Below, one piece after another: positions 4,366-62,054 of a DNA stretch of 64,000 nt (position 1 is the stretch's first letter; every line of letters starts with the position of its first letter). The stretch lies in contig NW_026705403.1 of the NCBI RefSeq assembly GCF_029867415.1, positions 186,001 to 250,000 of the forward strand, in the 5' to 3' direction. A program made the position numbers and the translations under genes. The notes beneath the pieces were generated by a model, which was given only the letters and a program-made list of their open reading frames with translations, had not been told where the DNA came from and ran no database searches. Origin of the DNA: Vicia villosa (lineage: Eukaryota > Streptophyta > Magnoliopsida > Fabales > Fabaceae).

Positions 4366-6339
4366 TGTAACACCCCATAAAATTCTTTATTTAATTTAAT
4401 TAATTTTTTTTTATTAAATATTAGAATTAAGTGGAATTATTTGAGAAATATGGATGAAATAAGGCTAATGGGCCAGTGTTGTAAGTAGCAGTTGGGGGGG
4501 TGTATCAGTTGTAAAGCCCTTTTCTAAAATAAAGTTATATTTTCATAAAAATAGAAAAGAGGAGTATTTTTGTGAAAAAAGAACCAAAAGGGAGCAGAGG
4601 AGATTGAACGTGAAATTGGGAGAAGAGCAAGTGCGAAGAGGAAGAGCATTCAAGAATTCGACATCGAGGTAAGGGGGGATTCTTCTCATTAACCTCTATT
4701 ATGGGTATTATGAATGATTCGATTGAATTCGTATGTTAGGATTCTGAATTGGATTATGTGTCGGTGTTTGGGGTTTTGGGGTTTATAGAACTTTGGTTCA
4801 ATTTATGTTGTGAATGATGATTGGTGTTGAATAATGATGTTAAAGCATGATTAGAAGTATGTGTAAATGTGTATTTTCGTGTTTGTTGGTGCTGTTTGAT
4901 GTTGCTATACGTTGTGGTACGTTCTGGTGTGGATTGGAATTGTTGCAGGTGCTGAAAAATGGAGTTTTGGGGTTTCTGGTACGAGGTAACCGGTTACCTG
5001 GGGAGTGGTAACCGATTACCTGAGGTTACGTCACTGAGATGGCCTATTCGTTGTGAAGTAACCGGTTACTTGAGTTGGGGTAACCGGTTACCACTGTTAA
5101 AAATTGTGTTTTGTGGTTCTGTTGGGAGGTAGTAACCGGTTACTGGTTTTGAAGTAACCGGTTACCGCTGTTACGAATAGACTTGTTGGTTACTCCGTAA
5201 GGTAGTAACCGGTTACTTGAATTGGAGTAACCGGTTACCACTGAAGCTTTTTGGAAAAATACTTATTTTAAAATGTCCGTAACTTTTAAACCGTTAATCC
5301 TTTTTGTACGCCGTTTCGAGTACCTGGTAGATGAATTAATGCCCTATTTTATGATGTATATTAGGGGATTATAATTAAAAAATCACTTTTGTTGGTTTTG
5401 TGGATTGTGTTTGGTGATAGTTTGAATAATGGTATGAACATGCTATGCGGTGTTTCTAGCTATTATGATTGATGAAACGATAATATATTTGTGGTGTTAA
5501 ATGTATTATGCTGTGGTGAATATCAAATGGTTGTGATATTATTATGCTTGTATGTTGTGATATAATGATTATGAATTGTCGGTGGATGTTAATGATGAGC
5601 ATGCCGTGGTTGATGAATGCATTTCATAATCATGTTGTGGGCTGTATCCTTTATGGTGGTGGGACAGCGGTAGCTAATTCCCATTGTGTGGAATTAGTGA
5701 GAGAAGTAGCCGTATCTTTATGGTGGTGGATCGGTGAGATGGGTTATCCCATGTTTGGTACCACATGCATTTAGTTGCATTGCATTAGGTTGTTGTGTAT
5801 AATTGTAACATGAATGGAAGTTGTCCAATGTTGCAATTTGTGTGTATTTTGGTATGAATGACTGTATTGGATAAATGTTGATATGATATCTGAATATAAT
5901 TGATTTGGGTGATTAATGTATGGATGAAGTTGTATTGTTTATATTCCTATAACATTTGTTAATGCGAATGAAACTCACCCTTACTGTTGTTATTTTTCAG
6001 ATTGAGGAGTAGCTTGTGTACTTGGTGAGGATTAGCTCGTCAAGTAGTTCGTTAGAGTCAGTTGGGTCTGTGTCATGCTCTGGTCGTGTAACACCGGGAA
6101 CGTTATTTTAGAGTTGTTTGATAAATGGTTGAATTATGAGTCTATGACTCCGGTTGTTTGATTATTCAGTTGTTAAGAATATTCCGCTGTGTTAACATGT
6201 TACCTGAATAATTTTGGTTTATCGTTCCTTATATGGCATGACATGAATGTTTATTTATTTTATTGGAGTTGTAATGCCCTTTCTCATGTTTTACTCTGAT
6301 TTTTGTTAAATTTTCCGCGGGGTTTAGAAGGGTGTTACA
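4366..6339 (+). repeat. 5' LTR of the Tekay-type element
   Basis: The LTR starts TGTAACACCCC and ends GGTGTTACA, giving inverted ends TGTAACACC/GGTGTTACA. It is 1974 bp long and carries eight copies of a GTAACCGGTTAC palindrome (4986-5238). The 76-codon ORF that can be read at 5544-5774 recurs in the 3' LTR and has no recognisable domain, so I do not call it a gene. Confidence 0.93.
4986..5238. repeat. Four pairs of GTAACCGGTTAC palindromes in the 5' LTR
   Basis: Perfect 12-bp palindromes start at 4986, 5058, 5080, 5132, 5154, 5205 and 5227; an eighth at 5008 has one mismatch (GTAACCGATTAC). Within each pair the starts are exactly 22 bp apart. The pairs begin 72, 74 and 73 bp apart. The 10-bp spacers inside pairs are not conserved. 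Each palindrome is centred on CCGG. Confidence 0.95.
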
Positions 6340-6343
6340 ATAG

Positions 6344-6355
6344 TGGTATCAGAGC
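6344..6355 (+). other. Primer-binding site (initiator tRNA-Met)
   Basis: TGGTATCAGAGC is an exact complement of the initiator tRNA-Met 3' end, four bases after the LTR terminus at 6339. Confidence 0.92.
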
Positions 6356-6457
6356 ATAGTCGGTCGTTTGAGTCAGAGTCTTAGAGTCGGTTAATCCTTC
6401 GTATACGACTAGTGTAAAGCTGACACTGTCGATACTTCTTGTTCTAATGAATATTGT

Positions 6458-9400
6458 TTGATATTTAGCAGAACAATGGCCGGAAGAGGAGGAAGAAACG
6501 ACGACGCGATCGCTGAGGCTCTGGGCATGATTGCTGGTGTGTTGGGAGGGAATGCCAATGGAGCTGGTATTGGTGCTGACAGGCAGCTGAACAGTTTTCA
6601 GAGGAACAATCCTCCTTTGTTCAAAGGCACGCACGATCCCGAAGGCGCTCAGAGGTGGCTGAAGGAGATTGAAAGGATCTTCCGAGTGATCGATTGTGCT
6701 GAAAATCTGAAGGTGAGGTATGGGACTCACATGCTGTCTGAAGAAGCTGATGATTGGTGGATGGCTAGTAGAGATGAACTTGAATCTGCAGGTGTAGCGA
6801 TTACTTGGGCGGTATTCAGGCAAGAATTCCTGAGGAGGTACTTTCCTGAGGATATTCGGGGCAAGAAAGAAGTTGAGTTTTTGGAGCTGACACAAGGTAA
6901 CACGACGGTACCGGAGTATGCTTCAAAGTTTGTTGAGCTGGCCAAGTACTATATCCACTATAACAATGATGAAGCGAGCGAATTTTCGAAGTGTGTTAAG
7001 TTCGAGAATGGTCTCCGTGATGAAATTAAGCAAGGAATCAGGTACCAAAGGATTCGTCGGTTTGCTGATTTGGTAGATTGTAGTAGAATCTATGAAGAGG
7101 ATAACCTGAAGCTGAAGTCATCTCACTCCCGTGAGTTAGTTGATAAGAAAGGGAAGAAGCCGATGGACCGTGGTAAACCATATGGTAGAGGTAATTATAA
7201 AGCTGGAAGTTGGAAGAAGCCTAGTGGGGGAGACTCTAGTGCCCCTGTTAAGTGCTTTAAGTGTGGGGAACCGGGACATCGTGTTCACGAGTGCAAAAGT
7301 GAAGAGAAGAAGTGCTACCGGTGTGGTAAAGCAGGCCACATTGCTGTTGACTGCAAAGGAAGGACCGTGACTTGTTATAACTGTGGTGAAGAGGGCCATA
7401 TTAGTCCACAGTGTCCTAAGCCGAAGAAGAATCAAACTGGGGGTAAAGTTTTCGCGTTATCAGGTTCAGAGACTACTCCGGAAGATCGATTGATTAAAGG
7501 TACGTGTTTTATCCATGGCACTCCTTTAATTGCAATAATAGATACTGGAGCAACTCACTCGTTTATTTCATTGGATTGTGCTAAACGTCTGAACTTGGAA
7601 ATATCTGATATTCATGGAAGTATGATCATTGACACTCCTGCGTCGGGTTCAGTGACTACTTCGTTTGCCTGTTTGAACTGTCCAATTGATATTTTTGGTA
7701 GAGAGTTCGGAATGGATTTAGTATGCCTTCCGTTGGAACAACTTGATGTCATCCTGGGTATGAATTGGTTGCAATTTAATCGGGTTCATATCAACTGTTT
7801 CACGAAGACAGTTATTTTTCCCGAAGATGTCAGTGTCGAGGATTTAGCAATGACTGCTAGACAAGTGGATGAAGCCATGAAGGACGGGGCTGCCGTGTTT
7901 ATGTTGATTGCATCCATGGAAGTGAAGAAGAAAGCGGTGAGTAGTGATTTACCAGTAGTATGTGAATTTCCAGAAGTTTTTCCAGAAGATGTAAGAGAGT
8001 TACCGCCAGAGAGGGAGGTAGAATTTGCTATTGAGTTAGTCCCTGGGACTAGTCCTGTGTCGATGGCGCCGTATCGTATGTCGGCATCTGAATTAGCAGA
8101 ATTGAAGAGTCAACTGGAAGAGTTACTGGAAAAAGAATTCATTCGTCCTAGTGTGTCGCCGTGGGGTGCGCCGGTGTTGTTGGTAAAGAAGAAAGAAGGC
8201 TCTATGAGACTGTGTGTGGATTATAGACAGCTGAATAAAGTTACTATCAAGAATCGGTATCCATTACCGAGGATTGATGATTTGATGGATCAACTGGTTG
8301 GTGCGAGTGTGTTTAGCAAAATTGACTTGAGGTCGGGATATCATCAGATTCGGGTGAAGACGGACGACATTCAGAAAACAGCATTTAGAACAAGGTATGG
8401 TCATTACGAGTATACAGTGATGCCCTTTGGAGTAACTAATGCGCCGGGGGTTTTCATGGAATATATGAATAGGATCTTCCATCCTTATTTGGATCAGTTT
8501 GTGGTGGTATTTATCGATGACATTCTAATATATTCTAAGAGCGAAGAAGAACATGCAGAGCATCTGAGAGTGGTATTAGAACTACTGAAGGAAAAGAAAC
8601 TTTATGCGAAACTGTCAAAGTGTGAGTTCTGGCTAAGTGAAGTAAGCTTTCTTGGGCATGTAATTTCTAAAGATGGTATTGCCGTTGACCCAACGAAAGT
8701 AGAAGCAGTGTCTCAATGGGAAGCTCCGAAGTCAGTTTCCGAAATCCGTAGTTTCCTTGGTTTTGCGGGTTACTATAGAAAGTTCATTGAAGGTTTCTCG
8801 AAGTTAGCGTTACCGTTAACTAAGTTGACTAGGAAGGGTCAAGCATTCATCTGGGATTCGAAATGTGAAGAAGGATTTCAAGAATTGAAGAGGAGGTTGA
8901 CTAGTGCACCGATCTTGATTTTGCCGAATCCGGCGGAATCTTTTGTTGTATATTGCGATGCTTCATTGTTGGGATTAGGAGGTGTACTAATGCAGAATCA
9001 ACAGGTAGTCTCTTATGCGTCGAGGCAACTCAAGGTACATGAGAGAAACTATCCGACTCATGACTTAGAGTTGGCAGCAGTGGTATTTGTGTTGAAATTG
9101 TGGAGACACTATCTGTATGGTTCGAGGTTTGAAGTGTTTAGTGACCACAAGAGCCTGAAGTATCTATTTGATCAAAAAGAGCTGAATATGAGGCAAAGGA
9201 GATGGTTAGAGTTCCTCAAGGATTATGATTTTGGGCTGAATTACCATCCGGGTAAAGCAAACGTGGTTGCCGATGCTTTGAGTAGGAAGTCCTTGCATAT
9301 GTCTATGCTTATGGCGAGGGAATTGGATTTAATTGAACAATTCCGAGATTTGAGTTTAGTATGCGAAGACACTCCTGTCAGTGTTAAGTTAGGCATGCTG

Positions 9401-10843
9401 AAGTTGACTAGTGGCATTCTGGAAGAGATTCGAGAAGGTCAGAAAGTTGATGTAGAGTTAGTGGATAAATTGACTCTAATTAACCAAGGCAAGGGAGGTG
9501 AATTCAGAATCGACGAGAATGGTATTATAAGGTTTGGTAATCGTGTTTGTGTTCCTAACGTTTCTGAATTGAGGAAGAGTATTCTCGAAGAAGGACATCG
9601 TAGTGGATTGAGTATACATCCTGGTGCTACCAAGATGTATCATGATTTAAAGAAGCTGTTTTGGTGGCCGGGAATGAAAAAGGAAATAGCTGAGTTTGTC
9701 TATGCTTGTTTAACCTGTCAGAAGTCGAAGATTGAGCATCAGAAACCATATGGAGCTATGCAACCGTTATTTATTCCGGAATGGAAGTGGGATAGTATAT
9801 CTATGGATTTTGTTTCTGGATTGCCGAGAACGGTGAAGAACTATGAAGCCATTTGGGTCATAGTGGATAGGTTGACTAAGTCTGCTCACTTTATACCAAT
9901 GAGAATGGATTACCCAATGGAGAAGCTGGCTCAATTGTACATTGAGAAGATAGTGAGTTTACATGGTATTCCTTCGAGTATTGTGTCAGATAGAGATCCA
10001 AGGTTTACATCCAAGTTTTGGGAAGGGTTGCAGAAGGCTTTGGGTACTAAGCTGAGATTGAGTTCTGCTTATCATCCGCAGACGGACGGACAGACAGAAA
10101 GGACTATCCAATCGCTAGAGGATTTATTGCGTGCTTGTGTGTTAGAAAGAGGTGGTACTTGGGATAGTTATCTACCCTTGATCGAATTTACCTACAATAA
10201 TAGTTTTCACTCGAGCATTGGTATGGCTCCGTTTGAAGCTTTGTATGGTCGGAAATGTAGAACGCCTTTATGTTGGTATGAATCTGGCGAAAGTGCGGTG
10301 ATTGGACCAGAGATTGTTCAAGAAATGACAGAAAAGATTAAGATGATTCAGGAGAAGATGAAGGCTTCTCAGAGTCGTCAGAAGAGTTATCATGACAAGA
10401 GACGGAGAACACTTGAGTTTCAAGAAGGAGATCATGTGTTTATGAGAGTTACTCCTATGACTGGTATCGGACGAGCTCTAAAGTCAAGGAAGTTGACTCC
10501 GCGTTTTATTGGTCCGTTTCAGATTTCAGAAAGAGTGGGAGAGGTGGCGTATCGCATTGCGTTGCCACCGACGCTTGCGAATCTGCATGATGTATTCCAT
10601 GTGTCGCAGTTGAGGAAATACATTGCTGATCCATCGCATGTGATCCAAGTGGATGATGTACAGGTAAAAGATAATCTGACGGTTGAAGCTTTGCCTATGA
10701 GGATCGAGGATCGGAAGGTGAAACAATTGCGTGGCAAGGAGATAGCGTTGGTCAGAGTAGCTTGGGGAGGACCAGCCGGTGGGAATGTTACATGGGAATT
10801 GGAGAGCCAGATGAAGGACTCCTACCCGGAACTCTTTGCCTAA
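6458..10843 (+). CDS. Intact Gag-Pol polyprotein of a Tekay-type chromovirus
   Basis: A 1461-codon uninterrupted frame. Gag ends in three CCHC knuckles exactly 20 residues apart (Cys at about 266, 286 and 306). Then come protease ([10 protein letters not shown], Asp about 362), reverse transcriptase (VDYRQLN about 587; FIDD about 687), RNase H (YCDAS about 833), integrase with an HHCC region (about 1054-1092) and the catalytic core (SMDF about 1116, SDRDPRF about 1177, Glu in QTERTIQ about 1215), a GPY-type segment ([11 protein letters not shown] about 1351) and a C-terminal chromodomain-like tail ending in [18 protein letters not shown]. The tail should guide integration to particular chromatin in this family. 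A second ATG at 6476 (MAGRGGRN) is the more typical chromovirus start. All catalytic residues I can identify are present. Confidence 0.95.
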
Positions 10844-10885: not shown

Positions 10886-12859
10886 TGTAACACCCCATAA
10901 AATTCTTTATTTAATTTAATTAATTTTTTTTTATTAAATATTAGAATTAAGTGGAATTATTTGAGAAATATGGATGAAATAAGGCTAATGGGCCAGTGTT
11001 GTAAGTAGCAGTTGGGGGGGTGTATCAGTTGTAAAGCCCTTTTCTAAAATAAAGTTATATTTTCATAAAAATAGAAAAGAGGAGTATTTTTGTGAAAAAA
11101 GAACCAAAAGGGAGCAGAGGAGATTGAACGTGAAATTGGGAGAAGAGCAAGTGCGAAGAGGAAGAGCATTCAAGAATTCGACATCGAGGTAAGGGGGGAT
11201 TCTTCTCATTAACCTCTATTATGGGTATTATGAATGATTCGATTGAATTCGTATGTTAGGATTCTGAATTGGATTATGTGTCGGTGTTTGGGGTTTTGGG
11301 GTTTATAGAACTTTGGTTCAATTTATGTTGTGAATGATGATTGGTGTTGAATAATGATGTTAAAGCATGATTAGAAGTATGTGTAAATGTGTATTTTCGT
11401 GTTTGTTGGTGCTGTTTGATGTTGCTATACGTTGTGGTACGTTCTGGTGTGGATTGGAATTGTTGCAGGTGCTGAAAAATGGAGTTTTGGGGTTTCTGGT
11501 ACGAGGTAACCGGTTACCTGGGGAGTGGTAACCGATTACCTGAGGTTACGTCACTGAGATGGCCTATTCGTTGTGAAGTAACCGGTTACTTGAGTTGGGG
11601 TAACCGGTTACCACTGTTAAAAATTGTGTTTTGTGGTTCTGTTGGGAGGTAGTAACCGGTTACTGGTTTTGAAGTAACCGGTTACCGCTGTTACGAATAG
11701 ACTTGTTGGTTACTCCGTAAGGTAGTAACCGGTTACTTGAATTGGAGTAACCGGTTACCACTGAAGCTTTTTGGAAAAATACTTATTTTAAAATGTCCGT
11801 AACTTTTAAACCGTTAATCCTTTTTGTACGCCGTTTCGAGTACCTGGTAGATGAATTAATGCCCTATTTTATGATGTATATTAGGGGATTATAATTAAAA
11901 AATCACTTTTGTTGGTTTTGTGGATTGTGTTTGGTGATAGTTTGAATAATGGTATGAACATGCTATGCGGTGTTTCTAGCTATTATGATTGATGAAACGA
12001 TAATATATTTGTGGTGTTAAATGTATTATGCTGTGGTGAATATCAAATGGTTGTGATATTATTATGCTTGTATGTTGTGATATAATGATTATGAATTGTC
12101 GGTGGATGTTAATGATGAGCATGCCGTGGTTGATGAATGCATTTCATAATCATGTTGTGGGCTGTATCCTTTATGGTGGTGGGACAGCGGTAGCTAATTC
12201 CCATTGTGTGGAATTAGTGAGAGAAGTAGCCGTATCTTTATGGTGGTGGATCGGTGAGATGGGTTATCCCATGTTTGGTACCACATGCATTTAGTTGCAT
12301 TGCATTAGGTTGTTGTGTATAATTGTAACATGAATGGAAGTTGTCCAATGTTGCAATTTGTGTGTATTTTGGTATGAATGACTGTATTGGATAAATGTTG
12401 ATATGATATCTGAATATAATTGATTTGGGTGATTAATGTATGGATGAAGTTGTATTGTTTATATTCCTATAACATTTGTTAATGCGAATGAAACTCACCC
12501 TTACTGTTGTTATTTTTCAGATTGAGGAGTAGCTTGTGTACTTGGTGAGGATTAGCTCGTCAAGTAGTTCGTTAGAGTCAGTTGGGTCTGTGTCATGCTC
12601 TGGTCGTGTAACACCGGGAACGTTATTTTAGAGTTGTTTGATAAATGGTTGAATTATGAGTCTATGACTCCGGTTGTTTGATTATTCAGTTGTTAAGAAT
12701 ATTCCGCTGTGTTAACATGTTACCTGAATAATTTTGGTTTATCGTTCCTTATATGGCATGACATGAATGTTTATTTATTTTATTGGAGTTGTAATGCCCT
12801 TTCTCATGTTTTACTCTGATTTTTGTTAAATTTTCCGCGGGGTTTAGAAGGGTGTTACA
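10886..12859 (+). repeat. 3' LTR of the Tekay-type element
   Basis: This is the second 1974-bp LTR, at a constant offset of 6520 from the 5' copy. I found no difference from the 5' LTR by eye. The target duplication GTGAG follows at 12860-12864. Confidence 0.93.
11506..11758. repeat. Paired GTAACCGGTTAC palindromes in the 3' LTR
   Basis: The same eight-palindrome cluster as at 4986-5238, shifted by 6520 bp, including the single imperfect copy. Confidence 0.95.
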
Positions 12860-16369: not shown

Positions 16370-17479
16370 CAACGCAGAGTTAGGAGCCACCGAGACCGAA
16401 AAACTATTACAAGTATTAAGGAAATACCCATCTGCGTTAGGATATAACATCGCCGATCTGAAAGGAATAAGTCCTTCCATATGCATGCATCGCATCATGT
16501 TGGAAGAAGATTGCAAAACCTCTAGGGAACATCAAAGGAGGATTAACCTTATCCTGAGCACAGTAGTTAAAGATGATGTAACCAAACTTCTAAATGCAGG
16601 AATTATATATCCAATCTCTGATAGTCAGTGGGTAAGTCCGGTCCATTGTGTACCAAAGAAAGGAAGCATAACAGTTACCGTAAATAAGTCAGGCGAATCT
16701 ATCTCCGAAAGAAAGGTGACTGGTGCGAGGATGTGTATTGACTATCGTAAACTGAACAAAGCCACAAGGAAAGACCATTTCCCTATTCCCTTTATTGACC
16801 AAATGCTCAAACGCTTAGCAAAACACTCTTATTACTGCTACCTGGATGGTTATTCATGATTCTTTCAAATCCCAATTCACCCTGATGACCAAGAGAAAAC
16901 AACCTTCACGTGCCCTTATGGAACATTTGCTTATAGGCGAATGCCGTTCGGATTATGTAACGCCCCAGCAACATTCCAGAGATGCATGATGTCATTTTTC
17001 GCTAATTACATAGACAACATCATGGAAGTCTTTATGGACGAATTCTCTGTGTGTGGGGAGGATTTCGAAGGATGCCTCTCAAATCTAGAAAAAGTATTGG
17101 ACAGATGTGTACAAGTTAACCTCGTCCTGAACTGGGAAAAGTGTCAGTTTATGGTCAAACAAGGGATTGTAGTTGGACATATCGTCTCCAAAAGAGGGAT
17201 TGAAGTCGATAAAGCAAAGATCGAAGTAATAGAAAACCTCCAACCCCCAAAAACAATTAGAGAAGTACGGAGCTTTTTAGGACACGCATGTTTCTACCGA
17301 AGATTTATAAAGGACTTTTCTAAGATCTCCAAACCTCTGACCGGCCTCTTAATGAAAGACGTAGAGTTTAATTTCAACGATGAATGTTTAGAAGCCTTTG
17401 AAGTACTAAAGACAACCCTTATATCCGCACCCATAATGCAACCACCCGACTCGAATTTACTGTTTGAAATTATGTGCGA
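16370..17479 (+). pseudogene. Athila-type reverse transcriptase fragment, copy I
   Basis: The frame starts inside pol (RKYPSALGYNIADLKG), continues through the RT fingers and palm, and ends at FEIMCD, the start of RNase H. It is broken by an in-frame TGA at 16857-16859. The catalytic box is FMDE (about 17033-17044) where an active enzyme has FMDD. The same TGA and the same D-to-E change occur in copies II and III, so they predate the duplication. After 17479 the sequence switches to an unrelated exon-like fragment. No gag or protease is present. Confidence 0.9.
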
Positions 17480-18182: not shown

Positions 18183-18253
18183 TTTGGTTTAAATAGTGTG
18201 CCATTTAATTTGTGTTGGTTTGAATATTATCTTGGCTATGCATTTTAATTATA

Positions 18254-19444: not shown

Positions 19445-19453
19445 TTAATTATA

Positions 19454-41642: not shown

Positions 41643-42865
41643 TGTAGCGGGGAAATTCTGATATCGAAGCCATGGGATTGACTCGAATCAATATTTCATT
41701 TGAAATCGCCACCGCGCTTTATTTTTTCAAAGGAAAAGGGAAAAGAACGTAAAACCCAAAGTTTGTTTTTAAAACAAAAAGAGAACTCAGGTTCGGGTGT
41801 TGATTATACAAGGGGAAGGTTTTAAGCACCCCTCATATCTGTGGTACTCCACAGGAACCTTTTTGAAAATCTGTGTCGTGTGTGCTAAAAAACGGGTTTG
41901 TTTTATTTTTAAAATAAGCTCGGCAAAGCGTTAAGCTTTGTGCCTACATACCTCCTCGGTGCAATGGAGAAGTCAGAGCTAATGTAGTTCCGCTTAAAAG
42001 GGGAAAACATTAAAAAAAAACGAATAAACACTTTATCATCATTGGAGAGAAATACTCAGCCATTGATCTTGAGCATGAGAACAAACGAGTTCTTTGCATC
42101 GCAAATGAAAGAAGGGCTCCAACTCAGATAAAATCAACGAGTATGCCACTAGCTCTCTCACGCGAAAAAGCTCTCATTATATCAATCAATTTCAAAATCG
42201 TGGGGTATAACCACTCGTTTCGACAATTAACGGTGTCTAAACTTTGAAGAAAAAGGCCACTAAGGGCAAAAGATATTTTTTAAAGAAAAAGTTTTGAAAA
42301 GGTTGCAAACATAAGAATGTTTTTGAAAAAGAGAGAAGATTTTGAAAATTAAAGAAGTGGGAGGAGATGAAGAGGCTATCCTATTGCGTAAAATAAAAGC
42401 TAAGGAAAAGAACGGTCTAACCGAAATAAGAAGCCAACACTTGACATTAAGAGTCAAGGTAGATTTCCATCCTTTGGACTTATCAATACCAAACCAACAC
42501 ATTATAACTTGGGGATCTAGATGAACTTATTGTCTTAGCACCACTTCGCATTAAGCACATTAAAATTTCTGACGAAAATCGGGCAGAGTAACGGCTGTTT
42601 TCGGGTAAAATCCTTATCTCAATGCCTTGGAATTAACCATCAAGGACTTTCAAGGAAATACCTGCATACACAAACAGACAACAATCCAATGCCAGACAGA
42701 CAGAACAATTACAGAGTAATAACAGAATGAGGGTCCAGAGGTCCTAAGTCCATAAGTCCGAATCTCCAAAATGCTCGGGATAGTAGCCAATAGTCCGAAA
42801 GAGAACCTTATGTGTTTTTTAGATTTTTGTTGATTATTAGTGTTTTAGCATAAAAGTAAAGTATG

Positions 42866-42957
42866 GTCCAAGTGGACAAAAAGAAAATAGCGGAAACATA
42901 AACATAGTGTCCAAATGGACAAAGAGAAAATACCGGAATATAAACGTCCAAATGGAC
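42866..42957. repeat. Three GTCCA(A/G)(A/G)TGGAC inverted-repeat units in the Ogre LTR
   Basis: GTCCAAGTGGAC at 42866 and GTCCAAATGGAC at 42909 and 42946. Each has 5-bp arms and is followed by ACAAAnAGAAAATAnCGGAA, so this is a short tandem repeat of 37-43 bp containing a small palindrome. Confidence 0.8.
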
Positions 42958-43540
42958 AAAGAGAAAATAGCGGAATGTAAATATGATGAAATGATAAAGT
43001 AAAGCATAAAGCAAATTATAAAGAGCAATATAATAAAATGCGGAAATTAAAGTTAGTTGTTAGATGTTAAAGATAACCATCTTGAAACTTGTCAAGTATG
43101 TTATCAAAATTAGTAAGGAAGATCGATGGTGAGTGAAGGATGTTCTCGGATTTAAATTTAATGGACATTTATCAGAAGCTTGATAAAATCATAGCGACTA
43201 CACGATAAACCTCCATAAGTCTTAAATCAACCGCATACAATTCTCTTCCATATTTGATCTTTTTTTATTCGGGACACGAAATATTGCGCTATGTTAAGCA
43301 GATCGCCAAGTGATTTATGTAGAAATCACCATACAACGAGGCCGGTCAAAACTTTATGTGCTAATGCATGCGAGAGAAATGATATGTAGATCATTCTCCG
43401 AAAGCAATACCGCACGAAAAGAAAATAGGTAACGATCTAGTCTTTACCAAGAATCCATAAGAATTCTCAAAGTATTAAGACTTTCATCGATCAAAAGAAA
43501 AAAGGAGAAGGAGAAGATAAAATGCCTAAAGTAAAATCAA

Positions 43541-43770
43541 CTCACACTATCATTAATATCATTCATCTAATATTATGGATTTGGTCCTTTCAAACCTATC
43601 AACATCCTAGATCCAATGATATTAATGAAGTGGAGGAAGAAGAATAACATTTACAAAAGATAATCAACTCACACTATCATTAATATCATTCATCTACTAT
43701 TATGGATTAGGTCATTTCAAACCTATCAACATCCTAGATCCAATGATATTAATGAAGTGGAGGAAGAAGG
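43541..43770. repeat. 127-bp tandem duplication in the Ogre LTR
   Basis: CTCACACTATCATTAATATCATTCATCTA recurs at 43668, offset 127, and the similarity extends through GATATTAATGAAGTGGAGGAAGAAG. Only a few differences are visible. Confidence 0.85.
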
Positions 43771-43818
43771 AAGCCAAAACAAGCGTAAAAAAGGCAAAAA
43801 ACCACATTCTGCCAGCAG

Positions 43819-43924
43819 GAAATCGATTTCATGCAAGGGGAATCGATTTCCATAGTGCAGTTTTCAAAAAAAAACAAGTTACGTACAGCATGAAATCGAT
43901 TTCAGCCTTAAGGAAATCGATTTC
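43819..43924. repeat. Two pairs of GAAATCGATTTC palindromes (Ogre LTR, downstream of TATA)
   Basis: Palindromes at 43819, 43839 (one base short of perfect), 43892 and 43913. Starts within pairs are 20 and 21 bp apart and the pairs are 73 bp apart. In element orientation this cluster is about 450-550 bp downstream of the TATA box. Confidence 0.9.
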
Positions 43925-44374
43925 ATCAGTGTAAATTTCAGCAAAAACATCATGAAAAGGCATGAAGCTTGATTTGAACAAATATACAAACACCTTATGA
44001 TCACATATCAATTGGAGCACGAATTTTCCATCACAAAACCAGCAATTATCATCAATGTAGCATCTAAGATGCATCACACACAAGCACAAAAGAATCACAT
44101 TATGGTGGATGAATAAAGATGAAGAAAATTACCAAATCTTGAACAAAACTTAGATCTACTTCAAGAATCACCAACACAAATCTTGATCTCTCAATAATTG
44201 AAGAAAAAGAGTGAAATGGATGGTGGTTTAGCTCAAAGTTTTGTGAGGTTCAAGATGTGACTCACAAACTTTATGAAAGAAAAAGAGCTTTGGTGAATTT
44301 GGTAGGGATGAGGAGAGAAATTGCAAGGGGTTTTTTGGCTCTCAAAGCTTGAGAAATGAGAGAGTAGTGACCTC

Positions 44375-44382
44375 TATTTATA
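44375..44382 (-). promoter_or_regulatory. TATA box of the Ogre LTR
   Basis: The minus strand reads CGTCCTATAAATAGAGG, a good TATA box inside the LTR. It separates the two palindrome clusters. Confidence 0.6.
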
Positions 44383-44616
44383 GGACGAGAGCAAGAGTAG
44401 TGGCAATTTAGTCATTTGCTCTTGGTTAATTAACTTGTGTTTAATTGGTAATTAAAGTGGCATTTAAATGGTAAAAAATGGTAAAATGAGGTTTAAGTGG
44501 GTTTAAGGAAGGGTTTAATTTTGATGAGGTGGAAAATTGGTAAAATGATCAAATAAAAAACGTGCCAAAATGATGTCAAGCTTCCCTCCTTATATTTTTT
44601 TGAATTTCTCCTTAAG

Positions 44617-44795
44617 GAAATCGATTTCTCCAGGAGTGAAATCGATTTCACTCTGTTCCAGAAGAGAATTTGGCGCAAAATACACTAGGGAAATCGATTT
44701 ACCCAGGAGGGAAATCGATTTCATGTTGTCCAGAATGTGATTTTGTTGAAAATTGCTGTAGGGAAATCGATTTACCCAAGAGGGAAATCGATTTC
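44617..44795. repeat. Three pairs of GAAATCGATTTC palindromes (Ogre LTR U3)
   Basis: Palindromes start at 44617, 44638, 44690, 44711, 44763 and 44784. The spacing is 21 bp within every pair and exactly 73 bp between pairs. The first members at 44690 and 44763 end in A instead of C. In element orientation the cluster lies upstream of the TATA box. Confidence 0.95.
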
Positions 44796-45063
44796 ATGCT
44801 GTCAAAAATGTGGAAAATGCCTTGCTTATGGATGTCTTGGCTTAGTACCTACAAAACAAAAACCTACAAAGAAACAAAGCAATATTTTTGGTATTTGGGT
44901 TAGTATAATATGCATACAAGATACACAATCATTGGTGCTTGATGGTCCCTCTTATTGATGAGGTGAGTGCAACACCACAAACAAAACTTCTAAGTGAAGC
45001 TCTTGATTAATGATTGGGATATGAATGATAAATGATCTTAGGGTCAAAAATTGGGGTATGACA

Positions 45064-47638: not shown

Positions 47639-48952
47639 TTAGGCGAAGTATTTCTTGACTACATCAGCATTCACGGGATGTGGGAGCTCCTCTCCATCCA
47701 TAGTTGCAAGAATTAATGCACCGCCAGAGAAGGCTTTCTTAACAACGTAGGGTTTTTCGAAATTAGGAGTCCACTTGCCCCTTGAATCAGAGGTGAAAGA
47801 CAAGATCCTTTTGAGCACGAGGTCGCCTTCTCTGAATACACGAGGTAAAAAGCTTTCTTCATTCTTTTCTGGTACAACTGACCATGGCATAAAGCCGTCA
47901 TTCTCTTTTCTTCTATCAAATTCAATTGATCAAACCTGCTCTGACACCACTCAGCCTCAGATAACTTGGTTTCCATTAAAATTCTCAACGATGGAATCTC
48001 AACCTCAATAGGGAGCACTGCTTCCATACCATAAACCAAAGAAAAGGGAGTTGCCCCTGTTGAAGTACGAACAGATGTACGGTACCCATGCAAAGCAAAT
48101 GGGAGCATCTCATGCCAGTCCTTGTACGTAACAACCATCTTTTGCATAATCCTTTTAATATTCTTATTTGCTGCTTCAACAGCTCCATTCATCTTTGGCC
48201 TATAAGGCGAAGAGTTGTGATGTTCAATTTTGAAACTTTCACACAGTTCTCTCATCATACTGTTATTCAGATTCGAGCCATTATCAGTGATGATCTTGCT
48301 CGGTACACCATATCTGCAGATGATGTTGTTCTTGATAAATCTAACCACAACTTGCTTTGTCACATTAGCATATGATGCAGCTTCCACCCACTTGGTAAAA
48401 TAATCAATTGCTACCAGGATGAATCGGTGTCCATTTGAAGCTTTGGGTTCAATCATGCCAATCATATCAATACCCCACATAGAGAAAGACCATGGAGAAG
48501 AAATAACATTGAGAAGTGTCGGAGGCACATGAATCTTGTCAGCATACACTTGACACTTGTGACATTTCTTTACAAACTTGTAGCAATTAGATTCCATTGT
48601 AAGCCAATAGTAACCTGCTCAAAGCATCTTTTTAGCCATCGAATGTCCATTGGCATGGGTACCAAAAGATCCTTCATGAATTTCATGCATTAACATGTCT
48701 GCTTCGTGTCTATCCACGCATCTGAGCAAAACCATGTCATAATTCCTTTTATACAAAACATCAGCATTGATGAAGAAACTGCCAGCCATTCTCCTCAAAG
48801 TTTTCTTATCCTTATTTGATGCCCCAAGTGGGTACTCTTGGGTCTGAAGAAAATGCTTAATATCGAAGTACCAAGGCTTCTCATTTGCTGATTCCTCAAC
48901 TGCAAATACATGAGCAGGTCTATCAAGACGTCTGATTGTAATCTAAGGTTCC
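47639..48952 (-). pseudogene. Ogre/Tat-type integrase, broken, 5' part lost
   Basis: The minus-strand frame contains the integrase zinc region (KKCHKCQVYADKIHVPP), core motifs (WGIDMIG, ITDNGSN, NGAVEAANKNIKRI) and the C-terminal GPY-like part. Breaks are a TAG near 48946, a TGA near 48615 and a frameshift near 47890, after which the true C-terminus (VNADVVKKYFA) is read in another frame to 47639. The SIRE-like element is inserted at 48953; the rest of the pol upstream is not found beyond it. It is non-functional. Confidence 0.9.
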
Positions 48953-53825: not shown

Positions 53826-54223
53826 CCGAGCACCTAAACCATTTGTTACCCCGTTCTTTGTTTACCCACCAAACCAAAGCCACGTTACATCCCTAAGACC
53901 TCATAAAGTGTGTGTAATCTCTGTGTGTAGTGATTTGAGGATTTATTCAAAGTTGAAAGTAATATGCATGCCTTGATATTATGAGTGTAGACACTTTAAC
54001 CCGGAGAGATTTTGTGAGAGTGTGAAAAGCTTGCAGGTGAAAAGCGTGTTCGAAAGTGGGAATGCCATTGATAGTCTGAAAAAGGAAACCTTACACTCGA
54101 TTGCTAAGTGTAGGAATCGTGCGAAAAACCTGGTTGTGTTGTGGAGAAAAGAGTCTCGTCGGTGACCTTTGTTTTGACTCGATACATCACTTGAGGACAA
54201 GCAATGAGATAAGTGTGGGGTTG
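53826..54223 (+). other. 3' tail of another Athila copy, ending in a polypurine tract
   Basis: From about CCGTTCTTTGTTTACCCACCAAACC the sequence is Athila 3'-untranslated type. It ends TTGAGGACAAGC...AAGTGTGGGGTTG (54191-54223), immediately before the LTR. The same kind of region follows ORF-1 at the right edge. The left border with the SIRE fragment is uncertain by tens of bases. Confidence 0.65.
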
Positions 54224-55663
54224 TGATCGGTCACCATTTCTAGTAAGTTTCCGCACCTTTTTCCGACCAAAAGTCATAATCTTGGTAATACTAAGTGGCA
54301 TTGTTATAGGTTTTATTATAAGTTTCTTAATTTGTCGGTTGTTTGAGTTTTGCATGCTAGTGTGTTTTAAGTTTTATAAAAGTGCCATTTTATGCGTTGG
54401 TTGTTAGTTTGTTGTTGGCCAGGTTGACCCAGGAATGAGATAGGAACTTAGGACACTTCGGGGCGAAAAAAGAAGCTGAAAGAACCAAAGATGAAGGTTC
54501 ACACGGGCACCCGTGTGCATGCACACGGGCCGTGTCAAAAGATGGCTGGAAAGATGTTTTTGAGAAGCAAAACAGAGGTTTCACACGGGCACCCGTGTTC
54601 CTGCACACGGCCCGTGTGGAAAGATGCGTGGAAAGGAAATTTTTGAGAGCTGACCAGAGGAACAACACGGGCACCCGTGTTCCTGCACACGGACCGTGTT
54701 GTTAGGCGCGGGCAGATGTTCAAGTTTTGTAATTTTGAAAGCATGGATCTCATTAAGGGTATTTCGGACCTTTCGGATGCGGAGGAAGTGAGCCAACACT
54801 ACTAAAACCTAACGGGAAGAAGTGTGAAGGCAGCTTGGATCATTGAGGATAGAGAATTACAGAGAAAGAACAGTCAAGGGTTTTGGAAGAGATCTTCAAG
54901 AGCACTCGCGATTGGAGATCATATCGACCGATAATTTCTTGTAATGACTTCATTTACTCTTGTTATTTTCTTAAACACTATGAGTAGCTAAACTATTTTA
55001 TGCTAGGGTGATGTCCCTAAATCTTTTCATGTAATGACTTGTTAAAACCGTTGTGATGAATTTGATGTTTTTATAATTTGAGTTTATGATTCAAAGATTT
55101 TCATGCTTCATCATATTGGAAAATATTTTGTTGATCTATGATTAGGGTTAGGCGTGACACACCACTCTAATGCGTTTTGAATCAAAACATTACCGGTAAA
55201 TCGCTTAGGAATAAGGATTTCACCATAGTGATCATTCATTCTAGATTACGATGCATAATGCCTTAATACTAAAATCAATTATTGAGGAATTGAAATTGAC
55301 TTTTAAGTATTAATAAGTTCTCCACTAAGGAATTAGGGAAAACTATTTTATGGAATTGATACTCAATTGTAGTCACATCTTTTCATGAACAACGGTGTTC
55401 TCAAGTAGTTACATAAGATTTATACATCAACCTTAGCATGCCTTCTCATTTGTGAACCAAATCATCATTTACTTATCGTTTTTAATTATAAACAGTTAGT
55501 AGTTTTATCAAGCAAATCAAAAACCAACAATAGCTTTTTGTTCAGTTGAAATTTAGTCCTGGCTTATATTTTATCCGCAGTCCTTGTGATCGATACTTGG
55601 ATTCAACTCCATTTTAATAACTACATCGGTAACAAAAGTAGTACACTTGCTATTTTCCGATCA
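54224..55663 (+). repeat. Athila-type LTR (1440 bp)
   Basis: It starts TGATCGG and ends CCGATCA, perfect 7-bp inverted ends. It is preceded by a polypurine tract and followed after six bases by a primer-binding site, so it acts as 3' LTR to its left neighbour and 5' LTR to its right neighbour. It carries three pairs of CACGGG/CCCGTG palindromes at 54501-54699. Confidence 0.85.
54501..54699. repeat. Three pairs of ACACGGG-type palindromes in the Athila LTR
   Basis: The first member, ACACGGGCACCCGTGT, starts at 54501, 54583 and 54665. The second, ACACGG(G/C/A)CCGTGT, starts at 54523, 54605 and 54687. The start distance is 22 bp in all three pairs and the pairs repeat every 82 bp. The two members are different but related palindromes. 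Confidence 0.95.
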
Positions 55664-57172: not shown

Positions 57173-60100
57173 ATGGCCGCTCAAAGCTCCCAATTCCAAG
57201 AAGAGACACGTAGCAATTTAAGGAACACCGGAGCCTCAATCAAGAACCTTGAAGTACAAATGAGTCAAATTGCTCAACACCTTGCAATTCCGCAAGCACC
57301 AGGAGCCCTCCCAAGCGCAACTGTTACTAATCCTAAAGACAATCAAAAAATCAATGTCGTCACTACACGGAGAGGGAAACCACGTGAAGTGGTGGAAAAG
57401 GATTCGGAGAGTGAGGATCAATTGCTTGAGGTGGAGCTGGACATAAGAGAGAATGAGCAAGTGGAAGAAGTGGTAACACCAGCACCAGTTACGAAAGAAA
57501 AAGTATTAACACCAACACCAGAAGTCAAGCTGCCTTACCCTCAAAGAAACAAGAAAAAGGGGCAGCAAGAAAAGAATTTTGAGAAGTTCCTGGAATTATT
57601 CAAAAAGCTGGAGCTGAACATTCCGTTGTTGGAAGCACTTGAGCAAATGCCCACCTATGCCAAATTCATGAAGGACATCATCGCTAAAAAGCGAACCATT
57701 GCAGACCACCCCATTATTCTAACAGAAACTTGTAGTGCTATTTTGCAGGGCATGAAGATACCAGTGAAAAAGAAGGATAGAGGAGCAGTTACTATCCCTT
57801 GCACTATTGGAGATAGATCTTTCAAGAGAGCTTTAATTGATCTGGGGGCAAGTATCAGTCTCATGCCTCTATCCATCTACAAAAAGTTGGGAATTGGTGC
57901 AATCCAAGACACTCGGATGACTCTCCAATTTGCAGATCATTCGGTCAAGCGACCTTACGGAGTAGTCCAAGACGTCCTTGTGAAAGTGGATAAGTTTGTG
58001 TTTCCGGTAGATTTTGTAATTCTTGAAATGCCAGAAGACGAAGAGATGCCGATAATCTTGGGACGACCATTCTTGGAAACGGGGAGAGTCATGATAGATA
58101 TGGATGGGGGCACTCTGACTTTGAAGGTTTATGATGAAGAGTTAAAAATCAATGTTCATAATACCATGAAGCATAAAGAGGATATTGGCAGTAGTAGCAA
58201 TATACAAGTGCTCCAACAAGTGGTAGAAAGTGATCATGTGGAGAGTGTATTGCAATTACCTCTCGAAAGAGTTTTGAGCATGTCAATTTTTGGAGAAAAT
58301 GAAGAAGCCGGTGATAATGACTTGGAGGTGGTATCAATGTTGGAAACTCAACCTATCTTTAAAGGTTCTCGAACACATAGGTGGGAAGATCTAAGGCAAC
58401 CAATAGCATTGGGTTGCAATGAAGAAAAGCCAAAAAGTTCAGAATTGAAACAGCTTCCGGAGAATCTTAAATATGTTTTCCTTGATTCTGAAGAAAAATG
58501 TCCCGCCATCATTAGCTCGAGCTTGAAAAATATACAAGAGGACAAGTTAATTGAAGTTCTGAAAAAGTTCAAGGGAGCTATGGGTTGGAAAATTGAAGAC
58601 CTCAAGGGAATAAGTCCTACAATGTGCATGCACAAAATTCTCATGGAAGAAGATCACAAACCGGTGGTGCAACCTCAAAGGAGATTGAACCCAGTTATGA
58701 AGGAGGTGGTGAGAAAGGAAGTTGTGAAGCTGTTAGATGCAGGTCTTATTTATCCGATATCAGACAGTTCATGGGTGAGCCCTGTTCATGTGGTACCTAA
58801 AAAAGGAGGTACAACGGTGATAGCTAATGAAAAGAATGAGTTAATTCCTACCAGAACGGTCACTGGGTGGCGGGTGTGCATAGACTACAGAAGACTAAAT
58901 CTGGCCACAAGAAAAGACCACTTTCCATTGCCATTCATTGACCAAATGCTAGAAAGATTGGCTGGGCATGACTATTATTGTTTTCTGGATGGGTACTCGG
59001 GATACAACCAAATTGCGGTTGCACCGGAGGATCAAGAGAAGACAGCCTTTACTTGCCCATACGGTATCTTCGCTTATAGAAGGATGCCGTTCGGGTTGTG
59101 TAATGCCCCAGCGACATTCCAAAGATGCATGACTTCTATTTTTGCTGATATGCTTGAAAAGCATATGGAAGTCTTCATGGATGACTTCTCGGTATTTGGT
59201 TCCTCCTTTGATAATTGTCTGGCTAACCTTTCACTTGTTTTGCAGCGATGTCAAGAAAGTAATCTGATCCTAAACTGGGAGAAGTGCCATTTCATGGTAC
59301 GAGAAGGCATTGTGCTTGGTCACAAGATCTCCCACAGGGGAATCGAAGTTGATCAAGCTAAGGTGGAGGTTATCTCAAAATTACCACCACCTGTGAATGC
59401 GAAAGGTATTCGGAGTTTCCTAGGCCATGCGGGATTCTACCGTAGGTTCATAAGGGATTTTTCGAAGATAGCCAAACCGCTGACCACTTTGTTGGTTAAA
59501 GACAGGACTTTTGTATTCAATAAAGAGTGTGCCGATGCATTTGAGACACTGAAAAATAAACTAGTGTCGGCACCCATTGTGATTGCCCCTGATTGGTCTC
59601 TACCCTTTGAGATCATGTGCGATGCTAGCGACATTGCAGTGGGGGCTGTACTTGGACAGCGGAGAGAAAAATTGCTTCATGTTATTTATTATGCCAGTCA
59701 TGTTTTGAACCCTGCACAGATCAATAATGCAACTACCGAGAAGGAGTTGCTAGCCGTTGTGTATGCCTTTGATAAATTCAGGCAATATCTGTTGGGTTCA
59801 AAAGTGATTGTTTACACTGACCATGCTGCTTTAAAATATCTCTTTGCCAAGCAGGATTCGAAACCCAGACTTCTGAGGTGGATTTTACTTCTCCAAGAGT
59901 TCGATGTAGAGATTCGCGACAAGAAAGGGTGTGAAAACACTGTTGCAGATCACCTTTCGCGAATGTCACCCATTGAGGAGACAGAAGAGCGGCGTCCAAT
60001 AAAGGATGAGTTTGCTGATGAACACATCCTAGCTGTTATTGGAGTGCCTTGGTTTGCTGATTACGCAAACTACCTTGTTGGCGGTATAATACCTGACGAT

Positions 60101-61327
60101 TTTGATTCTAACCGCAAGAAAAAGTTTGTTCATGATTGCAGGTTCTATCTATGGGACGACCCATACCTATACAAGAGAGGAGTAGATGGGCTGATAAGAC
60201 GATGTGTGCCTGAGGAAGAGCAAAAGGATGTGTTGAGAGCATGTCATGACTCGGAATATGGAGGGCATTTTAGTGGGGATCGTACTGCCTCCAAAGTCTT
60301 GCAGTCAGGGTTGTACTGGCCATCATTGTTCAAAGATTCCCAAGAGATGGTAAAAGAATGTGATAAGTGTCAGCGTACTGGGAACATTTCAAAAAGAAAT
60401 CAAATGCCCCAGAATTTCATGTTAGAGGTGGAGTTATTCGATGTTTGGGGAATTGACTTCATGGGTCCTTTTCCACCATCATTCGGGAAGAATTACATCT
60501 TAGTTGCAGTGGACTATGTCTCAAAATGGGTGGAGGCGGTAGCTTTACCAACTAATGATGCAAAGGTAGTAGTCAAGTTCTTGAGGGAGAACATATTTGC
60601 TAGGTTTGGAGTACCGAGAGCACTTATCAGTGATGAAGGAACGCACTTCCTAAATCACCTCATGGAGAAACTCCTGCAGAAATACAATGTGAAGCATCGG
60701 ATAGCCACCCCTTATCACCCTCAAACAAGTGGTCAGGTAGAGGTGTCTAATAGACAGCTCAAACAAATTCTCGAGAAGACAGTGAGTTCGTCGAGAAAGG
60801 ATTGGGCAACAAAGCTAGATGATGCGTTATGGGCTTACCGAACGGCGTTCAAAACACCCATCGGGATGTCACCATACCAACTTGTTTATGGAAAAGCATG
60901 TCACTTACCTTTAGAGCTTGAACACAAGGCATTTTGGGCAACTAAACTTTTGAACATGGACTTGTCTCTAGCAGGAAATTCTAGAATCTTACAGTTGCAT
61001 GAATTAGAAGAGTTCCGGAATCGTGCGTACGAAAATGCCAAGGTTTACAAGGAACAGACCAAGAAGTGGCACGATAGGAGGATTCAGAAAAAAGAGTTTT
61101 GGGAAGGACAGCTGGTCCTTCTGTACAATTCCCGTTTGAAGCTTTTTCCGGGAAAATTGCAATCCAAATGGTCGGGACCATTTATGGTTCATAAGGTGTT
61201 CCCTTACGGTGCAGTTGAAATAAAAAATCAAGCTAATGGAGACATCTTTAAAGTTAATGGGCAGAGATTAAAGCCATATTTCCAAGGTCAACCAGTTGGA
61301 CAGGTTGATGTCATTCGTCTTGCTTAG
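57173..61327 (+). CDS. Athila Pol (protease-RT-RNase H-integrase)
   Basis: 1384 open codons from 57173, in frame with gag. Protease has the Athila-type [13 protein letters not shown] (about residue 220). RT has [20 protein letters not shown] (about 570) and the catalytic [10 protein letters not shown] (about 667). RNase H starts at IMCDASD (about 815) and ends at VADHLSRM. Integrase has its zinc region ([10 protein letters not shown]...CDKCQRTGN, about 1022-1065), [10 protein letters not shown] (about 1093), ISDEGTHF and the Glu in GQVEVSNRQ (about 1189). All catalytic residues are present, unlike in element X. Without read-through of the stop at 57092 the nearest ATG for Pol would be 57173. 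The 48-nt hairpin block follows 14 bases after the stop. Confidence 0.93.
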
Positions 61328-61341
61328 TAGGACGATGGACC

Positions 61342-61389
61342 GTCGAGCCATGCGACGTTAAACGAAGCGCTCCGTGGGAGGCAACCCAC
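61342..61389 (+). promoter_or_regulatory. 48-nt conserved post-pol block with hairpin (Athila)
   Basis: GTCGAGC...CGACGTTAAAC.AAGCGCT and the hairpin CGTGGG-AGGCAA-CCCACG (61373-61390). Length and order equal the block at 33846-33893. The loop differs by one base (AGGCAA, AGACAA). Confidence 0.75.
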
Positions 61390-62054
61390 GTTTGTTTCCG
61401 TTAACTTTCATTTTCTTTGTTTTATTTCGTTTCTTTTGTAGGTGGTAGATTTTGGACCGGTAGACGCAACTCGAGTAAAAAGGCACGGAGAGTGTCCATT
61501 TTTGGTGCATTGAAAGCCATCAACACGGGCACCCGTGTGCAGTAACACGGCCCGTGTTGAAAACTGACTGAAAAGAAGAAATAAAAAATTTAAAAAAGTG
61601 GCTTCAGCACTTGCAACACGGGCACCCGTGTGCAGCAACACGGCCCGTGTTGCCCTCAGCACACCCCTAATTGTCAATCCAGCTTTTTCACACGGCCGCC
61701 CGTGTGCAGGGACACGGACCGTGTGAGCTGTGCGGGACAGAATTTTTCAAATTTTTTTAAAACCCCATGTGGGGCCCATCTCCATTATAACCAATCTTCT
61801 TCTTCTTTCCATTCATTCTCCCACTTTTCTTTCTCATCCTCCATTAAACCCTAGCCTCCACCTTCACTAAACTCATCCTACCACCATCAACCACCCATCA
61901 AAACACCATAGTGCTTTCACAAAAGTTGTTCTACTCTCCATCCTCTTCACTTCTATCGGTTCAGATTTTTGATTTCGTGCAATTTTATTTTTACGAATTT
62001 TTCCTTGTGTTATTTGTGTGTTTTTTGTTAACTTTTTCTTGCAGAGCCATTACA
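61390..62054 (+). other. Spacer between pol and ORF-1, ending in a splice-acceptor-like site
   Basis: It holds a second cluster of paired palindromes (61523-61724), then pyrimidine-rich DNA and finally GTTAACTTTTTCTTGCAG|AGCC just before the ORF-1 ATG at 62055. A frame open from 61911 gives a hydrophobic N-terminal extension, but that stretch is simply T-rich and better read as a polypyrimidine tract. Confidence 0.6.
61523..61724. repeat. Three pairs of ACACGGG-type palindromes between pol and ORF-1
   Basis: First members start at 61523, 61616 and 61690 (the third as ACACGGCCGCCCGTGT). Second members start at 61545, 61638 and 61712. The start distance is 22 bp in each pair; the pairs are 93 and 74 bp apart. 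The cluster is outside the LTR, so the element has two internal sets besides its LTR copies. Confidence 0.95.

Follow-up and report, generated by a model that had tools for sequence, protein, structure and literature searches.

Why should retrotransposons of different lineages carry short palindromes in one and the same paired layout? The question is raised by a 64-kb stretch of the Vicia villosa genome (C480:186001-250000, hereafter the window), in which a Tekay-type, an Ogre-type and an Athila-type long terminal repeat (LTR) retrotransposon each hold arrays of palindrome pairs. A reading of the sequence alone had pointed out these pairs and proposed a common reader for what it took to be unrelated palindromes. 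We analysed the arrays in the window and across the 2.03-Gb assembly (1,888 contigs). All of the palindromes named in that reading are present, and the observation turned out to be wider than claimed: the spacing is strict, the palindromes vary in mirror-symmetric pairs, one of them occurs in both Ty3/gypsy and Ty1/copia elements, and arrays in homologous LTRs have switched their sites in concert.

Palindrome pairs and their spacing

The expected distance of 20–22 bp between the two centres is kept in every pair of the window: 22 bp in 4 of 4 Tekay pairs, 20 or 21 bp in 5 of 5 Ogre pairs and 20.5 bp in 6 of 6 Athila pairs. The Tekay array begins 620 bp into the LTR, and seven of its eight GTAACCGGTTAC sites are perfect, as are seven of the ten GAAATCGATTTC sites in the two arrays of the Ogre-type LTR, a lineage name that rests on LTR features by eye (Pfam gave an integrase fragment only). 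Unmutated sites contain CpG, as had been noted. In Athila, the first palindrome of a pair has arms of six or seven bases around an asymmetric centre and is thus not a perfect palindrome. The repeat periods proposed earlier (72–74 bp for Tekay, 73 bp for Ogre and 82 bp for Athila) describe the arrays for which they were given but not the second Athila array (Table 1). Agreement of the three lineage spacings within 1.5 bp has a chance probability of about 0.012 if each is taken as uniform over 13–40 bp, a modest value alone.

A chance origin of the arrays was ruled out by shuffles together with the reversed-pattern controls described below. Pairs were counted as palindromes with a common 5-base half-site and centres 13–60 bp apart, and local dinucleotide shuffles served as control. 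The window gave 30 such pairs against a shuffle mean of 0.3 and a maximum of 2 (60 shuffles), a count that overstates the independent cases because it includes both Tekay LTRs and next-neighbour distances. Eighteen stretches of 10 kb chosen without regard to palindromes (L008–L025; 13 from smaller contigs and 5 from C1, with L006 and L007, picked for their sites, excluded) gave 32 pairs against a mean of 1.4 and a maximum of 3 (30 shuffles). Many of the 32 pairs lack the two-turn spacing, L017 alone contributing 11 at 34–50 bp, and not every repeated palindrome shows this geometry: distances off it occur in L009 (28 and 54 bp), at 7429 in L018 (36.5 bp) and in L025 (26, 29 and 52 bp). Within the Ogre LTR itself (window 42866–42957), three GTCCAAATGGAC-type palindromes lie at 43 and 37 bp, without two-turn geometry; L017 holds runs of a GTCTTCTTTAAGAC-like palindrome at 601–1000 and 2344–2450, in 34–50-bp steps and without two-turn pairing. 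Elsewhere in the window, the AT-rich TTAGTATAACTAA occurs at 13680 and 13702, 22 bp apart, which may be a simple duplication.

The palindromes are kept while the bases between them drift, as the sequence-only reading had stated. Identity among repeat units is 0.979 (Tekay), 0.958 (Ogre) and 0.952 (Athila) inside the palindromes, against 0.381, 0.296 and 0.298 in the remainder of the unit; the spacers reach 0.483, 0.444 and 0.500, respectively. No shifted mask equalled the observed palindrome identity (0 of 75 for Tekay, 0 of 82 for Ogre and 0 of 94 for Athila); the best came near it (0.958, 0.950 and 0.908), presumably because they overlap the true mask. When the palindromes were masked, the spacers of the Ogre U3 and R arrays were still alike (0 of 200 shuffles reached the observed likeness), and the idea that these two arrays agree in their palindromes alone was dropped as too strong.

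The same sites are abundant across the genome. Each pattern was compared with its reverse, which in the case of a palindrome is again a palindrome, of equal composition, and counts can be lower bounds. GTAACCGGTTAC was found 16,952 times (control 84), GAAATCGATTTC 20,560 times (61), GCAATCGATTGC, a related palindrome discussed below, 2,590 times (37) and TTGATTCGAATCAA in 424 perfect copies (5); the first three together make about 40,000 perfect sites. Where coding context was seen, the sites are within retrotransposon genes or next to them. Pairs were then sought with the spacer left free. With 0–30 bp allowed, GTAACC pairs numbered 4,972 and GAAATC pairs 5,734, and with 0–20 bp allowed, Athila pairs numbered 3,083 and 2,976 on the two strands; all controls gave 0. 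Among the matches listed, which are the first places on one chromosome and include related copies, yet show many different spacer sequences, the GTAACC spacer was 9 bp in 19 of 50, 10 bp in 28 and 21 bp in 3, the GAAATC spacer was 9 bp in 44 of 50 and 10 bp in 6, and the Athila spacer was 6 bp in 100 of 100. Two of the three 21-bp cases are in-frame sites of the copia element L006, described below, and the third has a similar spacer. Of the sites listed, whether paired or not, 6 of 50 for GTAACC and 8 of 50 for GAAATC had no neighbouring site within 120 bp. The Athila pair module occurs in both orientations inside one array (for example, C1:2124860, minus, and 2124941, plus). On C1 (G000:C1 39485964-39517957), Athila pair modules also recur at a 3,476-bp step in five successive places, which suggests a tandem array derived from the element.

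One palindrome class in two superfamilies

The sequence-only reading had called the palindromes unrelated in sequence. This does not hold for Tekay and Ogre, both of which, with further palindromes found here, fit one class, GNAAYCGRTTNC (G-N-AA-Y-CG-R-TT-N-C). It does hold for Athila, whose ACACGG half-sites stand apart from the class at a near-equal spacing, as does TTGATTCGAATCAA. Members of the TTGATTCGAATCAA family at L007 522–900 are decayed copies (up to three changes) that lie 21–23 bp apart within pairs, the pairs repeating at about 63 bp.

Variation within the class is mirror-symmetric. We collected 88 sites from 17 arrays (66 distinct 18-mers). A site was allowed to depart from the class once at most; the invariant positions are therefore given by the rule itself, but the symmetry at variable ones is not. 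Positions 2 and 11 are symmetric in 61 of 66 18-mers, with three pair types (shuffle mean 28.6), and positions 5 and 8 in 62, with two pair types (33.3). Symmetry extends to the first flanking bases on either side (−1/+1; 40 of 66, all four pair types; 19.7) and to flank −2 (32 of 66; 20.1), and no excess was seen at flank −3 (21 of 66; 19.4). Distances between sites of the class cluster near multiples of 10.5 bp: five array-level values gave P of about 0.006–0.02, and 13 distinct distances gave about 0.001. We regard this helical phasing as suggestive only, because a spurious L006 site supplies two entries of the 13-distance set (31 and one within-pair 20), because neighbouring integers are not independent, and because the distances 81 and 87, as well as those of the Athila array in L011, are off phase.

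The class is not confined to one superfamily. In the Tekay and Athila open reading frames (ORFs), reverse transcriptase precedes integrase, which is the Ty3/gypsy order, and GTAACCGGTTAC also occurs in a Ty1/copia element, L006. This element has 376-bp LTRs (3917–4292 and 8613–8988, 98.9% identical), no ENV and an uninterrupted ORF of 1,422 amino acids with copia gag, integrase, SH3 and RVT_2 domains. Its U3 holds GTAACCGGTTAC at distances of 22-51-22 bp upstream of the TATA-like TATATAAG at about 4129 (of the four 5′ copies, one is changed), and its ORF holds four more copies, in frame, at 33-51-33 bp (residues about 792–834), between SH3 (ending at 787) and reverse transcriptase (beginning at 934). 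In L014, another copia relative (75% identical at the amino-acid level in part of gag), GTAACCGGTTAC stands at 62–63-bp distances upstream of the gag match. With the palindromes masked, the Tekay and copia arrays resembled each other no better than shuffles (86 of 200 and 87 of 200 reached the observed likeness), and the masked spacers thus gave no support to a ready-made array passed between the two.

The strongest new result, drawn from sequence alignments, is that sites in homologous LTRs have been re-keyed in concert at both mirror positions. An Ogre relative, L026, is 73% identical to the window Ogre LTR over 1,265 columns (72% outside the palindromes). Ten palindromes, in two arrays about 700 bp apart, are homologous between the two, and the window has GAAATCGATTTC where L026 has GCAATCGATTGC (or one-base variants of either): positions 2 and 11 differ in 9 of 10 cases each, whereas every other position matches in 8–10 of the aligned cells. 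These figures retain a local misalignment in one Ogre row, which is the source of the matches at positions 2 and 11. A second pair of homologous loci, L028 and L027 (61.5% identity over 564 bp), behaves in the same way; of four palindromes, three give a good alignment, with changes at positions 2, 5, 8 and 11, and the fourth is locally misaligned, again with the row kept. Both loci are probable Tekay relatives, because around the array L028 can be matched to the Tekay LTR of the window (66–67% over stretches of 157 and 185 bp, counting the palindromes) and because, by eye, its terminal GGGTGTTACA is like that of Tekay. GCAATCGATTGC would thus serve both an Ogre relative and, probably, a Tekay relative. 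That ten sites moved to one new palindrome with their symmetry kept is hard to explain other than by a sequence-specific reader.

A candidate reader and its alternatives

To our knowledge, the triggers of the most abundant plant retrotransposons are largely unknown. We think it fairly probable, judging from the sequences, that the paired palindromes are sites of a host dimeric or tetrameric DNA-binding protein and that they are enhancers. Such a host-encoded, sequence-specific protein would bind each palindrome as a dimer and a whole pair as a tetramer or as two neighbouring dimers, the two palindromes facing the same side of the helix at a distance of about two turns. The p53-type response elements, in which two palindromes take one tetramer, offer an analogy only, as they concern an animal protein with unrelated spacing and sequence. 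In the Ty1/copia and Ogre elements, U3 sites upstream of a TATA-like box would probably enhance transcription, and copies near internal ORFs (the Athila 3′ ORF and the copia linker) would act likewise. Lineages would recruit one reader or its paralogues, and a lineage could switch all of its sites together within the GNAAYCGRTTNC class.

A shared reader at the DNA level is favoured because the geometry recurs, because a 12-mer is common to Ty3/gypsy and Ty1/copia elements, and because arrays switched in concert. A role in DNA is further favoured by the change of spacing by a whole turn (22 to 33 bp), by distances near multiples of 10.5 bp, by U3 positions upstream of TATA-like boxes and by the two orientations of the Athila module. 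Of the common readers offered by the sequence-only reading, the DNA-level one is thus best supported; CpG methylation and RNA hairpins explain the concerted switch and the sharing of sites less well. More tentatively, one host protein family may read GNAAYCGRTTNC pairs at two-turn spacing, both superfamilies having converged on it and families re-keying after a paralogue. If true, this would be a host-encoded lock-and-key chase in plants, with element families following a paralogue of changed specificity. With sites, half-site length and spacing laid out, together with natural re-keyed homologous LTRs, the reader can be sought directly and its specificity tested; if it is a host factor, the roughly 40,000 sites bear on the evolution of the plant's own use of that factor.

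Several points weigh against a DNA-binding host reader. The half-site gaps of an Athila pair are unequal (4 and 1 bp), which would be odd for one rigid dimer, and the between-pair distances of the Athila array in L011 (69.5, 70.5, 59.5 and 60.5) are poorly in phase. A TATA search found no match in the Tekay LTR, and the only plus-strand TATA-like match in the Athila LTR (54375) precedes the array, so the LTR arrays of these two elements may be transcribed rather than lie upstream. The shuffles used for covariation ignore relatedness among sites, the two Ogre arrays share some spacer sequence and are not fully independent, and the genome-wide pairs listed are confined to the first places of one chromosome. 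For the palindromic boxes of Sireviruses, compared below, the authors were unable to identify a shared site for one DNA-binding factor, as far as the available part of that report goes (PMC2829016).

The foremost alternative is a role in RNA, in which each pair folds into a 12-bp stem with a 9–10-nt loop, or palindromic loops drive dimerization or packaging of genomic RNA. Possible positions of the Tekay and Athila arrays downstream of the start site and the copia array within coding sequence fit such a role; compensatory changes are expected of a stem too, and the Ogre region between POL and the 3′ LTR holds hairpin-like repeats with compensated arms. A stem, however, needs only a complementary second site, not sites that are each palindromic, nor need ten sites in two arrays share a sequence and change together, and in copia and Ogre a TATA-like box follows the U3 array. 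The earlier remark that each pair can fold into one stem is true, but such folding is automatic because a pair is two copies of one palindrome, and it adds no independent evidence. We consider an RNA role unlikely.

A chromatin reader, that is, a CpG-dependent or anti-silencing factor that keeps the LTR open or closed as VANC does on VANDAL elements, is the next alternative and seems to us decidedly unlikely. It agrees with the CpG in unmutated sites and with the nature of VANC targets, in which a short motif is arrayed in tandem and the arrays of a family diverge jointly (PMC5735166). VANC is encoded by its own element, however, whereas here one site is common to different lineages, and the main text of that report contains no occurrence of 'palindrom-' (PMC5735166).

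Improbable, in our view, is that the arrays are a functionless by-product of tandem duplication and gene conversion, with palindromes merely seeding repeat growth. The window arrays do show as tandem repeats, and copies of one family are not independent; conversion, however, would have had to copy little beyond the palindromes while sparing the spacers, and the process predicts neither mirror-compensated change nor near-equal spacing in unrelated arrays.

That each element encodes its own reader, which would suit the uniformity of arrays within an element, is very improbable given the same 12-mer in Tekay and Ty1/copia, GCAATCGATTGC in an Ogre relative and a probable Tekay relative, and a Pfam scan that found no transcription-factor domain in the nine ORFs it covered (eight from the window, two of the nine, including 51405–52604, not being typical pol ORFs, and one from another locus), only retroelement domains, zinc knuckles, ATHILA and one sub-threshold Transposase_32 match.

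Other leads were set aside. DUO1/MYB and other MYB or trihelix factors were considered as candidates and dropped. Viral contigs were considered as a source of plant elements: one, L001, matched the GTAACC pair pattern in apparent coding sequence, which looks like chance, and three protein queries found no relatives. Palindromes as insertion targets concern, in the part of the source available, weak dyads at insertion sites rather than arrays (PMC6911290).

Known systems and further features of the window

The closest described system is that of the repeated motif (RM) boxes of Sireviruses, and the earlier statement that nothing of this kind had been described must be narrowed accordingly. RM boxes are multi-copy palindromes with dyad symmetry, as are the sites here; they lie shortly upstream of the LTR TATA box and clustered upstream of ENV, their flanks diverge, and 12 of 13 have a CGG-CCG core (PMC2829016). 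The elements here likewise hold at least eight copies each (8 in each Tekay LTR, 10 in the single Ogre LTR seen, and 12 over the LTR and internal region of Athila). Clusters stand upstream of a TATA-like box in the Ogre U3 and in the copia element L006, and in Athila the plus-strand match precedes the array. Clusters also stand before a 3′ ORF, whose ENV identity is putative, in Athila (61523–61724, before the ATHILA ORF) and in L011 (190–408, before an ORF match at 749–2056). The CGG-CCG core is present in Athila (ACACGG...CCGTGT); Tekay shows an overlapping CCGG, and the core is absent from Ogre and from the thirteenth Sirevirus box, that of Tnd-1 (ACAATCGATTGT), which resembles the GNAAYCGRTTNC class (PMC2829016).

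RM boxes were called Sirevirus-specific and absent from classic elements, and a regulatory role was suggested for them (PMC2829016). The carriers here are the Tekay and Athila elements, which are of the Ty3/gypsy type (by ORF order) rather than Sireviruses, an Ogre-type element (by its LTR, by eye) and the short-LTR copia element L006. The kind of palindromic box is thereby extended to Ty3/gypsy elements, and pair spacing and re-keying are added as new features; the available part of the Sirevirus report does not mention pair spacing, 21-bp pairing, helical phasing or concerted switching (PMC2829016). In the open-licence literature, neither pair spacing nor re-keying was found among the matches listed; the exact letters of six palindromes gave nothing on plant retrotransposons or readers, and shorter palindrome cores no plant reader, in each case among the matches listed.

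Other systems are more distant. The arrays resemble VANC targets in VANDAL elements in being tandem arrays of a short motif in non-coding parts, with subfamily-specific motifs whose units diverge together, but the VANC reader is element-encoded and its motif, YAGTATTAY, occurs in one orientation and at high density (PMC5735166). The heat element ONSEN and the W-boxes of EVADE are alike in that LTR sites recruit host transcription factors, but there the reader is known, and the portion of the source available mentions no paired-palindrome layout across lineages (PMC12786077). Adjoining short palindromes are found in a grass repeat and an enod40 insertion (AGGCG(T/A)CGCCT, 2.5 repeats), the repeat being unclassified and the part available giving no spacing (PMC10578108); this report and another (PMC11963269), in the parts available, describe plant elements with palindromic and tandem repeats that lack the two-turn pair geometry.

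The positions of the window features are given in Table 1.

Table 1 Retrotransposon features and palindrome arrays of the window
Feature	Position	Strand	Remarks
Tekay-type (chromovirus) 5′ LTR, TGTAACACCCC...GGGTGTTACA	4366..6339	+	1,974 bp; 100% identity to 10886-12859; followed by TGGTATCAGAGC primer-site sequence
Tekay array, 8 GTAACCGGTTAC sites (one changed) in 4 pairs	4986..5238	.	Neighbour distances 22, 50, 22, 52, 22, 51, 22
Tekay gag-pol ORF	6458..10843	+	Zinc knuckles, RVP_2 (protease), RVT_1, RNase H, integrase; chromodomain-like C terminus by eye
Tekay 3′ LTR	10886..12859	+	Identical to 5′ LTR
Tekay array, 3′ LTR copy of the 5′ LTR array	11506..11758	.	
Ogre-type LTR	41645..45063	-	Ends by eye: purine tract and TGTCATACCCC start at about 45063; low-coordinate end approximate
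Ogre array downstream of TATA box, 4 GAAATCGATTTC sites (one changed), 2 pairs	43819..43924	.	Distances 20, 53, 21
Ogre LTR TATA-like box TATAAATA	44375..44382	-	
Ogre array upstream of TATA box, 6 sites (two changed), 3 pairs	44617..44795	.	Distances 21, 52, 21, 52, 21
Integrase-core fragment, Ogre-type element	47713..48597	-	
Athila-type LTR	54222..55663	+	Ends by eye; primer-site-like TGGCGCCGTTGCCGGGGA just inside
Athila LTR array, three pairs: ACACGG-N4-CCGTGT, 6 bp, ACACGG-N-CCGTGT	54501..54699	.	Centres 20.5 bp apart
Athila pol ORF	57173..61327	+	
Second Athila array, between pol and 3′ ORF, three pairs	61523..61724	.	20.5 bp; pair starts 93 and 74 apart
Athila 3′ ORF	61911..63383	+	Pfam ATHILA

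Between the Athila pol and 3′ ORFs (window 61328–61910), an acceptor-like TTTTGTAG lies at about 61440, and GGGCCC followed by a CT-rich leader comes after the array (by eye), features that might be expected of an internal promoter or of a spliced ORF. The Tekay LTR has a donor-like GAG|GTAAGG at 4666 and an acceptor-like TTATTTTTCAG at about 6001 (both by eye), so that its palindrome array may sit in an LTR intron. An Athila-like piece of 2,445 bp is present in three tandem copies, the third shorter, at window 17397–24286, and occurs again at 27646–30093 with more than 99% identity. In the Ogre region between POL and the 3′ LTR (window 45405–46381, minus strand), a run of short repeats has inverted arms around a near-constant core, YCAGTGGNACGN. 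Of 30 units scanned, 22 have one of five fully paired arm types (CTACC/GGTAG, CACC/GGTG, ATACC/GGTAT, CATCG/CGATG and TATCG/CGATA), so the arms vary in compensating pairs; because the units recur in a 155-bp repeat, the independent arm types number about five.

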